Shown here piece after piece: positions 1,806 to 4,996 of a DNA stretch of 64,000 nt; the first letter of the stretch is position 1; each line of letters starts with the position of its first letter. The notes below the pieces were generated by a model. That model ran no database searches. It was not told where the DNA came from and saw only the letters and a list, made by a program, of their open reading frames with translations. The DNA comes from Sulfurospirillum sp. 1612 (GTDB lineage: Bacteria > Campylobacterota > Campylobacteria > Campylobacterales > Sulfurospirillaceae), in NCBI RefSeq assembly GCF_036556685.1, contig NZ_CP140614.1, forward strand, positions 1,426,001-1,490,000, in the 5' to 3' direction. Position numbers and translations under genes: made by a program.

Positions 1806-2888
1806 TCATAATTTGTGTGTTAATTCTTCGAGTACCACTGTCGCATAAGAACCTTTAGGCAAACTAAAGTGGATTTCGAGCCAATTTTCTTCTTCTTTAT
1901 AGCGCGATTCTACATCGGTTAAAAATATCCAAGCAAAACGCCGTGAACCATTCATCTGTTTTAAGTACGCTTCTGCCTCACCGTAAATCTTATCATCCAA
2001 GACTTTGGCATAGCCCTCTCCTCGCATACTTCTACTTCCGGGAAGCCATCCGGTGAGTGTGATATCATGATCAGAAAAACGCTGTGACTCTTTAGCTACA
2101 TCCTCACATAAAAATGCTTTCCCGGCAGGGTAATGATGGGCCACGTCCCCTTGAAATAATTTCAAAAATTGTTTTTGGGCACGCAGCATTTTAATCTCAT
2201 CTTTAGATAAACCAAGCAAATCCATCACTTCGGCATCTTCAAAACTGGATAACGTGTGTGAGATTTGAATACGAGAAGAGAGCCATTGATTGAAAAGATC
2301 GCTTTGATACGCGCTGATAAAGAAATTTTTCATTTTCATCCGACGCTCTTTTCGTGTCCCTTCTAAAATCGCTTTCCCAATCGCACTATTGTCGCCAGTT
2401 TTTCCAAAACGCTGATAACCAAAATAGTTTGGACATCCCTCTTTCGCCAAGGTTTTGAGTGCATTTTGTAGTTTGAGGGCATCGACTTTATTAACTTTTT
2501 TGAGTCGAATAAAAAATCGATTGCCTTTGAGATGTCCCATCCTAATTTTGTTATCATGATAGGTAGTAGAGAGAATCTTTATTTTTTCATCATGAAAATC
2601 TTTGAGTTTGGTTTCAAATTTTTTGTGTATTGAGAGGTATTGTGTGGTCATGCCATCTTTGTCTTTTAACCCAGCATAACCAAAATCTCGCACCTTAGCA
2701 CCACAAACTTCACTCAGTTTTTGAATCATATCCCACGTTGTCATATCTTTTTTACGAACATGCAAGACCAGATGCTCCCCTTGTCCTGAAAATTCATACA
2801 ATGGAAGTTCGTTGACGACAAAATCATTAGAATTTTTAGTAAATACAACATTGACAGGAGCGTGATTGAGGAAAAATAATCGTTTCAT
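1806..2888 (-). CDS. truD: tRNA pseudouridine(13) synthase TruD
   Basis: Converts U13 of tRNA-Glu to pseudouridine. The 360-residue protein matches the usual TruD length. Near residue 75 it has the family motif with the catalytic aspartate (GYAGLKDKDGMTTQ), and further on NYFGYQRFGKTGDN, the TruD signature around residues 153-168. The MRGEGY and the TVVLEELTHKL end also fit a full-length member. Start is the ATG at 2888, nine bases after GGAG. It is the only gene upstream of rnpB on this strand, and rnpB appears to have its own promoter. Confidence 0.95.
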   Translation of the reverse strand: MKRLFFLNHAPVNVVFTKNSNDFVVNELPLYEFSGQGEHLVLHVRKKDMTTWDMIQKLSEVCGAKVRDFGYAGLKDKDGMTTQYLSIHKKFETKLKDFHDEKIKILSTTYHDNKIRMGHLKGNRFFIRLKKVNKVDALKLQNALKTLAKEGCPNYFGYQRFGKTGDNSAIGKAILEGTRKERRMKMKNFFISAYQSDLFNQWLSSRIQISHTLSSFEDAEVMDLLGLSKDEIKMLRAQKQFLKLFQGDVAHHYPAGKAFLCEDVAKESQRFSDHDITLTGWLPGSRSMRGEGYAKVLDDKIYGEAEAYLKQMNGSRRFAWIFLTDVESRYKEEENWLEIHFSLPKGSYATVVLEELTHKL

Positions 2889-3067
2889 ACCAACACGCTC
2901 CTTTGTTTTGATACATCATGATTTTTCATAAATTGCTCCTTATTATCACCTATCATCAATATAATTTTGCGACATTATACTGTAAAATTTTATTTTGTTA
3001 GAGATTAAGTTAATTTAGAGTAAACTATTATCAAATTATGTATTTATCAAACAAAGGAGTAAAGAGT

Positions 3068-3703
3068 ATGGAGCTTGAACTGAGATTGAGCGTCTTTAGA
3101 TTTGATGCATCGAGTGATTATCTACCATTTTATAAGAAACATATTATAAAGATAGATAAAAGCAAGACTTTGAACAATTTATTGGCGATCATAAAAGAAG
3201 AAGACAGACTATTTGACTACCCGACAGGAAGAAATGCTGCGATTAGCATTGAGGGGAAAAATCTTTTTACAACCACAAAGATATCCGCAATCGTCGAGGC
3301 TTTTGGTGAATCGTTCACGCTCTTGCCGATGAGCCAAAAAAGAGCCAAAAAAGATCTCATCGTCAATATGGATGATTTTTATGAAACATTTGATTTGATT
3401 GATCCCTTTGTCGCTGCGACTGATAAAAAGATATTTGAAAAACTCGTTATCTATCATTATGCTTCTGATGTTTTTAAATACACCGATGATTTTCAAGGTG
3501 ATGCACTGTTTCTTTTTGCTCATGAGATGGTCAAAAAATATCCTGATCAAGCACAGCATATCTTTAAGATTATCGATAATGATGAAACAGGCATATGGCT
3601 TCATACTAATATCTGCAATAAAGTCTTCCCCTATGATTTTGATGTAGAAAATAAAATCTCTAGTATTCAAGATGAAATAGTAAGAGCAAGGAGCCAAAAG
3701 TGA
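3068..3703 (+). CDS. SdhB/FrdB-like ferredoxin-fold protein lacking the iron-sulfur cysteines
   Basis: The start at 3068 follows AAAGGAG with good spacing; a start 30 bases upstream has no such site. The 211-residue product aligns by eye with the iron-sulfur subunit of succinate dehydrogenase/fumarate reductase: LSVFRFDASSDYLPFYKKH at the N-terminus, AAISIEGKNLFTTTK in the [2Fe-2S] loop region, DLIVNMDDFYE (the RDLVVDMDxFY motif of SdhB) at residues ~107-117, and ICNKVFPYDFD where SdhB has CxxxCPxGID. Only one cysteine remains, so clusters cannot be bound in the usual way. It overlaps the next gene by 4 bp. Function unknown; a scaffold or regulatory paralogue of MfrB/SdhB is possible. I believe a Campylobacterota-specific domain family of unknown function covers this. 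Confidence 0.7.
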   Translation: MELELRLSVFRFDASSDYLPFYKKHIIKIDKSKTLNNLLAIIKEEDRLFDYPTGRNAAISIEGKNLFTTTKISAIVEAFGESFTLLPMSQKRAKKDLIVNMDDFYETFDLIDPFVAATDKKIFEKLVIYHYASDVFKYTDDFQGDALFLFAHEMVKKYPDQAQHIFKIIDNDETGIWLHTNICNKVFPYDFDVENKISSIQDEIVRARSQK

Positions 3704-4545
3704 AAAAATACGTCTTATTTGATAATATCATCGATATCAATGCAACAGAACCAATCGCTATATCTACCCGAGAATTACTCAAATTTTTAAAAGTCGAAAC
3801 ACTCACCATCAAAGAGTTGTCACGTGATCTTGGAAGTCATGATATGGGATATGATAAAAAAGGCTTTTATGTTGCCAATGCAAAAAATCTCGCTCTCGCT
3901 AACAAAGAAGGTGGCGCTATTATTTGTGCTGAAGATAGTGTATTTCTTTCGATACAACTTACAATCCAAGCGTTGAGAAATGATGCCGCACTCAAATCAG
4001 AAATTGACACCCTTTTAAAAGAGCAAGATTTGGAACTCGATTTGGATATTCAAATCAACACCTTAGCAGATTTTCTCGTCGAAGAAATAGGACTATCAAA
4101 AATCTCAAAACTCGTTAAAAATAATTTTGGAGCCTTTAATGCCGCCATTTATCTTGGCTCTAGTCAATGTCAACTCAGTCAATTTAGCACACTAGGTTCC
4201 TACACGGACATCTTAAAAACTTTGGGAGCCCAATGCATATCCTATGACTTGGCAGACCAAAGTAGTGGATATGAGATTAAAGAAATCAAACAAGAATTGG
4301 CTTTTAAAATGTCAGGTAGTTTGATGTTGGATATGTTTGATAATGCTGCTGATTTCGTACTCGTCAATGATGCACGAAGTTTCGTCATGTTTGACCAACA
4401 CCAAAGAGAACTCGAAAAAACAGTCGGAAGGGAAATCGATTTGAGTATCTTTTCTTTGGCTCAATTGGTACTCTTGGCCTTTGGGGAGACAAATAGAGAA
4501 GTTTTGGGTCTTAAATACCATAAAATTCAAACCAAAATAATATAA
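3700..4545 (+). CDS. SdhE/HdrB-like protein with degenerate CCG motifs
   Basis: A GTG start overlaps the preceding stop (GTGA), with AAGGAG six bases before it, so the pair is translationally coupled. The 281-residue product resembles the HdrB/SdhE (MfrE) family, which normally carries two CCG motifs that bind a non-cubane iron-sulfur cluster. Here AIYLGSSQCQLSQ stands where the family has a GCH motif, and DQSSGYE stands where CCG is expected; three cysteines remain in all. What is seen is the paired order and the substituted motifs. Homology to SdhE is inferred from pattern. Together with the upstream SdhB-like protein it looks like a cluster-less copy of a fumarate reductase/succinate dehydrogenase module. 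Confidence 0.65.
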   Translation: MKKYVLFDNIIDINATEPIAISTRELLKFLKVETLTIKELSRDLGSHDMGYDKKGFYVANAKNLALANKEGGAIICAEDSVFLSIQLTIQALRNDAALKSEIDTLLKEQDLELDLDIQINTLADFLVEEIGLSKISKLVKNNFGAFNAAIYLGSSQCQLSQFSTLGSYTDILKTLGAQCISYDLADQSSGYEIKEIKQELAFKMSGSLMLDMFDNAADFVLVNDARSFVMFDQHQRELEKTVGREIDLSIFSLAQLVLLAFGETNREVLGLKYHKIQTKII

Positions 4546-4609: not shown

Positions 4610-4996
4610 ATGCCAACCATTAATCGTTATGTCGATATCGACACCGTAGAGAGAGAATCAAAAAAAGATTACATCGATAGACACTCACCATTTATTCACT
4701 GTGCTAGTGAAGCCAAAAAAGGTGAAATCTTTCAAGTCACTGTAAAAATGGGAAATGAATACACCCACCCTGATGACTTTGATCATTATATTGCTAACAT
4801 TGCACTATATAATGGCGAAACATTACTAGCAAGAGCAGATTTTGTTGCCGGAACACTCGGTAATGAAAAATCTCATACTGAAGTCACTTTTAATATCAGA
4901 CCGATGGGAAGAAAACTCAAATTAGTCGCACATGCATACTGTACAAAACACGGACTATGGGAATCTACTCCTGTAGAAGTAGCCGTAACTGAATAA
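4610..4996 (+). CDS. Class II superoxide reductase-like (neelaredoxin) protein
   Basis: Superoxide reductases reduce superoxide to peroxide at a mononuclear iron held by four histidines and one cysteine. All five candidate ligands are present in this 128-residue protein: His in YIDRHSPFI (~25), the two His of THPDDFDHY (~48 and ~54), and Cys and His of YCTKHGLWES (~109-112), the last being the family hallmark. There is no N-terminal desulforedoxin domain, so it is of the one-iron class. The lysine near the first ligand that helps catalysis is arginine here. No signal peptide is visible, so it is cytoplasmic. It probably serves oxygen tolerance in a microaerophile or anaerobe. Confidence 0.88.
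   Translation: MPTINRYVDIDTVERESKKDYIDRHSPFIHCASEAKKGEIFQVTVKMGNEYTHPDDFDHYIANIALYNGETLLARADFVAGTLGNEKSHTEVTFNIRPMGRKLKLVAHAYCTKHGLWESTPVEVAVTE

Follow-up and report, generated by a model that had tools for sequence, protein, structure and literature searches.

Two overlapping genes in the window, a stretch of 64,000 nucleotides from Sulfurospirillum sp. 1612 (NZ_CP140614.1, positions 1,426,001 to 1,490,000), belong to the DUF5644 and HdrB-like_C family, and together they are almost certainly a cluster-free paralogue of SdhB and SdhE. A conserved family with a solved Helicobacter pylori structure thereby gains a clear origin, namely a module of complex II that has lost its clusters and kept its shape.

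The first gene, gene A (3068..3703, + strand, 211 aa), starts at an ATG at 3068 behind AAAGGAG, with a further mechanical in-frame start at 3038, and its stop lies at 3703. It is the SdhB paralogue and consists of an N-terminal beta-grasp domain, with a shortened 2Fe-2S loop whose ligands are gone, and a C-terminal domain that corresponds to DUF5644, a degenerate form of the 4Fe-4S domain of SdhB. Gene B (3700..4545, + strand, 281 aa), the SdhE/HdrB paralogue with an HdrB-like_C domain, begins with a GTG at 3700 that lies inside the stop of gene A, and the two genes are therefore probably translationally coupled. Both frames are open to their ends, as had been claimed for them in the initial annotation. 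A divergent gene on the opposite strand (1806..2888, −), which we take to be truD and whose homologues adjoin A in relatives, marks the locus, and a superoxide reductase gene of the desulfoferrodoxin/neelaredoxin type (4610..4996, + strand; PF01880, 91.4 bits) follows the pair. Promoter-like sites numbered 11, compared with 8.7 (sd 3.0) in shuffled sequences, and thus gave nothing usable, and the search for terminators found none.

The family assignment rests on Pfam matches above the curated cut-offs: PF18712 (DUF5644) matches the C-terminal half of A with 43.5 bits (cut-off 25 bits) and PF22196 (HdrB-like_C) matches B with 58.9 bits (cut-off 33.4 bits). The models for canonical subunits score below theirs, with the N-terminal half of A reaching 21.4 of the 27 bits set for Fer2_3 and A reaching 35.9 of the 88 bits set for NCBIfam dhsB; the NCBIfam SdhB and HdrB models match the pair far below their cut-offs. 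Sequence comparison relates A to 3KWL (4.4e-16) and Escherichia coli SdhB (7.8e-4), and B to HdrB (6.4e-13) and TIGR03288 (1.3e-18), and by these values the homology of A to SdhB and of B to HdrB exceeds chance. One relative from an f14 genome (L033) carries both Pfam domains in a single frame of 496 aa. At the thresholds used, neither Pfam nor NCBIfam models match a fused form from Sulfurovum (L139:6001-7053), so databases may leave some members of the family unannotated.

The H. pylori chain 3KWL is one fused polypeptide, whereas the window holds two overlapping genes; A aligns with its residues 23-221 and B with 301-511, and the structural matches reach Z 15.7 and 29.3, respectively. The 3KWL protein is very probably HP0468. 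3KWL is tabulated with unknown function (PMC3397514). A study of flagellum stability (PMC9570263) tabulates HP0468 as a DUF5644 protein, and another paper describes this gene as having a gastric-cancer association signal and unknown function, and as being upregulated by molecular hydrogen (PMC6090961). A search of the mainly open-access literature for 3KWL, DUF5644 and HP0468 found no functional study of the pair.

The window proteins, together with cluster-free relatives (52 sequences for A, 33 for B), were modelled with AlphaFold, which gave a mean pLDDT of 96.1 for A and 93.4 for B. Foldseek placed 3KWL first for the A model, followed by SdhB/FrdB chains, and HdrB chains and 3KWL on top for the B model, and VIA-align agreed in both cases. 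The best match of A to a complex II iron-sulfur subunit is 6awf_F (Z 17.9, rmsd 2.8, 200 residues). B matches HdrB best (Z 32.7, rmsd 2.2, 278 residues) and shares its whole fold, with further matches to 3KWL, a LutA model (Z 22.7) and EtfD (Z 18.9); a likeness of B to Asp/Glu racemases, with Z up to 9.5, was rejected as too loose at an rmsd above 6. The SdhB-like and SdhE/HdrB-like folds originally proposed from motifs are thus borne out, and the structure check set beforehand returned relatives of SdhB and HdrB rather than unrelated folds.

What the pair lacks is the cysteines. We took as reference the 12 cysteine columns common to 23 canonical SdhB sequences and the 10 that are universal in 20 canonical SdhE sequences; window A keeps 0 of the 12 and window B 0 of the 10. 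The DQSSG of B aligns with the K/N/S-CCG of canonical forms, and the DLIVNMDDFYE of A aligns with an SdhB segment of the type KDMIIDKADFW. The ICNKVFP of A falls at the motif of the second cluster, where the ligand columns of window A hold H179, N184, F187 and one gap; the cysteine of ICNKVFP, residue 183, lies outside any ligand column. The replacement of cluster cysteines at DQSSG and ICNKVFP had been noted from the window alone, and the proposed check across relatives extends it: no ligand cysteine is kept in 118 of 128 distinct A sequences, in 55 of 66 B sequences from two-gene forms and in 48 of 60 fused C-terminal parts, the remainder (10, 11 and 12 sequences) keep one, and none of these sequences has two or more. 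Across the 128 A sequences, three columns of the first 4Fe-4S site are mostly Tyr, Phe, Leu or Ile and the fourth is Ser, Thr or Asn, and the second site has one column of mostly His or Phe, one gap, one mixed column and one of mostly Tyr or Phe. It follows from these alignments that A and B cannot serve as the electron path of an SdhB/HdrB cluster chain, and their job is probably free of electron carrying.

In B the CCG-type cysteines of HdrB and SdhE have been replaced largely by Asp, Glu and Ser, and the former cluster sites could conceivably have become a polar or hard-metal site, which we consider unlikely. Among the 66 split B sequences, D stands at position 43 in 46, E or D at 78 in 64, S at 81 in 50, S at 188 in 39, D at 189 in 34, D at 224 in 45 and S at 227 in 39, and the fused forms that have the columns keep D43 in 23 of 26 and E/D78 in 27 of 30. 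However, these N-terminal columns are missing altogether in 34 and 30 of the 60 fused forms, and window B itself has V81 and S189.

That the pair is a decaying relic of sdhB and sdhE, as the loss of the ligands might suggest, is barely credible in view of its conservation. Many Helicobacter, Campylobacter and allied bacteria carry intact relatives (128 distinct open frames), the predicted folds are confident, and 16 fused genes of the Helicobacter type have a median dN/dS of 0.121 over 89 pairs (those with 0.05 < dS < 1.5, the remaining pairs being dropped), in line with the earlier suggestion that the proteins are under selection. In nine pairs of loci the dN of the cluster-free gene is 2 to 10 times that of the adjoining sdhA, sdhB or sdhE, and its dN/dS lies between 0.10 and 0.28 in eight pairs and reaches 0.54 in the ninth (L144/L145, Arcobacter-type), values made uncertain by a dS above 1 in many of these pairs; in one Sulfurovum pair, A is 70% identical and sdhB 91%. 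By these estimates from the Helicobacter-type genes and the nine locus pairs, the cluster-free gene is constrained, and less so than the catalytic subunits.

On phylogenetic grounds, the pair belongs to an old clade of SdhB-SdhE paralogues whose nearest relative is the succinate dehydrogenase of SdhABE type found in Campylobacterota. A tree of 68 sequences was built by a quick method with SH-aLRT support and no bootstrap; in it, the 45 cluster-free A sequences make up one clade (SH-aLRT 100), which joins 18 SdhABE-type SdhB sequences of the same phylum in one group (support 93). These SdhB proteins share with A the fold and the conserved N-terminal motif and differ from it in the cluster ligands and the full-length 2Fe-2S loop. 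The SdhB of 8-methylmenaquinol:fumarate reductase (MFR), another SdhB and FrdB fall outside this group. For B, the 18 cluster-free rows likewise group with one another (support 100), although many long branches were flagged and these joins may be false. Because families within the A clade largely keep together, its descent appears to have been mostly vertical.

The initial annotation had regarded the genes as possible paralogues of the MFR subunits. The paralogy to SdhB and SdhE holds, whereas the relation to MFR, in which MfrB and MfrE are distant homologues of A and B, does not. The MFR models give 14.9 of 600 bits for A (NF042952) and 45.2 of 500 bits for B (NF042965), far under the curated cut-offs, and A sits on a separate branch. 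The suggested co-occurrence check went the same way. Across 71 genomes of the class, we assigned gene A by hand, as A5 matches minus strong Fer2_3 matches, and SdhE by an NF042965 match above 90 bits, which leaves out weak matches in G000, G011, G076 and G089. Gene A was present in 36 genomes and SdhE in 28, with both in 7; SdhE was lacking from 29 of the 36 A-bearing genomes and gene A from 21 of the 28 SdhE-bearing ones (Fisher p 0.0006, a descriptive value, as it treats related genomes as independent). In the window genome, the SdhE model matches gene B alone. Gene A thus neither requires nor accompanies MFR, and scores, tree position and co-occurrence together lead us to reject an MFR origin of the pair.

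The surroundings of the genes were compared in 100 loci (L062-L101 and L105-L164), some genomes appearing twice; gene A was found in 94. The contig scan for relatives used two peptide patterns, misses distant forms and yielded 60 loci under Campylobacterota or broad (Proteobacteria) titles, six of which (L152-L155, L158 and L163) hold canonical SdhB only and one of which (L164) is a 95-aa fragment. The phylum-level sample of 61 genomes consists of a single order and has no bearing on reach beyond it. The neighbour labels thiL, pepF, flgI, UDG and methylase are names that we presumed by eye, and those of the small flanking genes, HP0467-like and HP0469-like, are likewise assumed. A thiL or truD gene lies within 1.5 kb of A in 60 loci, a superoxide reductase gene within 1.5 kb in 27 and an HP0469-like gene within 1 kb in 16. 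An sdhA gene lies within 1 kb of A in 18 of the 94 loci, all with the fused form, and sdhABE is also near A in L146 and L159. Several Arcobacter-type and Sulfurovum loci read thiL, cluster-free fused gene, sdhA, sdhB, sdhE, and fused forms also precede sdhA in several f15 and f6 loci; in Sulfurimonas the fused gene is divergent from sdhABE or lies behind it, and in the Arcobacter-type loci L134-L136 no sdhABE was found near it. Sulfurospirillum loci run thiL, A, B and mostly then the superoxide reductase gene, without sdhBE, and the window has truD, A, B and superoxide reductase; in both, sdhABE is missing beside the pair, which remains near thiL/truD. A adjoins thiL-truD in Campylobacter-like loci, and most Helicobacter-type loci read pepF, HP0469-like, A, B, HP0467-like. 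The simplest reading is that the pair arose by duplication at an sdhABE locus and stayed behind when sdhABE was lost; independent rearrangements may instead account for these patterns.

As both parts often form one polypeptide in relatives, A and B very probably act as one heterodimer. The regulatory or scaffold role first suggested for them is compatible with the sequence data, and our tentative preference, a guess that we place somewhat short of an even chance, is a protein-binding scaffold with the SdhA/FrdA flavoprotein as the likeliest partner. On this view the pair, probably born of a duplication at sdhABE, would imitate the SdhB-SdhE module without its clusters and act by binding proteins, its partner being SdhA in genomes that have sdhABE and FrdA in the others; FrdA and FrdB are encoded near 608-610 kb in the window genome. 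It might hold the flavoprotein while FAD is being loaded or assembly proceeds, and then give way to the genuine iron-sulfur subunit. The proximity of sdhA in 18 of 94 loci argues for such a partner, as does the retention of SdhB residues: F10, R11, F12, D17, P20, Y22, P87, D96, G144 and G175 of A are identical in canonical SdhB, and F10-R11-F12, D17, P20 and Y22 are kept in 82-100% of the 128 A sequences and in 23 of 23 canonical SdhB. An assembly role is consistent with the absence of the Sdh5 flavinylation factor (PF03937) from all 71 genomes, in a search with positive E. coli and Caulobacter controls, while a Fer2_3 iron-sulfur subunit is present in 71 of 71. Some organisms, however, can attach FAD covalently with no Sdh5 factor. 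Against a flavoprotein partner stand the 35 of 71 genomes that have the Fer2_3 subunit without gene A, the lack of A from most SdhE-bearing genomes, the faster evolution of A relative to sdhB seen in the Sulfurovum pair and in the single dN/dS of 0.54, and the fact that A keeps an SdhABE-type rather than FrdB-type hairpin in lineages free of SdhABE; the adjacency to sdhABE may also be inherited and not functional. If the flavoprotein is bound, the pair would represent a novel type of factor for the assembly or control of complex II, in genomes where Sdh5 was not found.

A new role of an unrelated kind is almost as probable as a flavoprotein scaffold. We hold it quite possible, without preferring it, that the pair has left complex II as a cytosolic scaffold or regulator of SdhB-HdrB shape with unrelated partners, standing beside sdhABE in some lineages only through its birthplace. 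The many A-bearing genomes without SdhE fit this, as do the thiL/truD genes that flank loci with and without sdhABE, the pepF-centred arrangement of most Helicobacter-type loci and the reported upregulation of HP0468 by hydrogen (PMC6090961); the residues shared with SdhB are nevertheless among the best kept of A, and fused forms have remained ahead of sdhA in several loci. Were the flavoprotein not bound, the pair would be a clear example of an electron-transfer module put to another use.

Two further readings also involve the flavoprotein. In one, which we think unlikely, the cluster-free mimic docks on the flavoprotein and either shuts the electron exit or shields the flavin during FAD loading; if true, the pair would be a decoy iron-sulfur subunit, present in bacteria ranging from vent dwellers to H. 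pylori, that helps to control or assemble complex II in a phylum in which Sdh5 was not found. In the other, which appears improbable, the module acts as a plug or inhibitor that would dock at the place of SdhB and disconnect the flavoprotein from the quinone pool. An SdhB/HdrB shape without clusters would suit a plug, and the superoxide reductase gene that often adjoins would fit the limiting of stray flavin oxidation, but gene A is absent from 35 of the 71 genomes.

A solitary SdhA-like flavoprotein was considered as a general partner and rejected: at E 1e-100, a threshold of our own choice, it matched in 0 of 26 f14 (Helicobacteraceae) genomes, though 17 of the 26 carry A. Such a gene does lie a few kb from the pair in several Sulfurospirillaceae loci. 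One example, without an adjoining iron-sulfur partner (L115:10626-12260, −), falls below the cut-offs of the SdhA/FrdA and L-aspartate oxidase models; another, in the window genome (G000:C1:1039780-1041348, 41% identical), also lacks an adjoining iron-sulfur partner and is followed by a frame that is presumably ferrochelatase-like.

Several small neighbours were recorded alongside the pair. In Helicobacter-type loci, the HP0467-like and HP0469-like genes (L042:2706-3011 and L042:606-1118) flank it; neither has a Pfam match, and the HP0467-like gene has only a weak NCBIfam match below the cut-off. One Campylobacter-type locus has a frame of 131 aa (L066:2227-2619) that separates B from a methylase-like gene and matches no Pfam or NCBIfam model. 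The superoxide reductase gene, recognized by similarity to that of the window, often adjoins the pair in Sulfurospirillaceae loci, and in five loci of the Arcobacter/Sulfurovum type (L139, L141, L145, L149 and L162) such a gene comes after sdhE.
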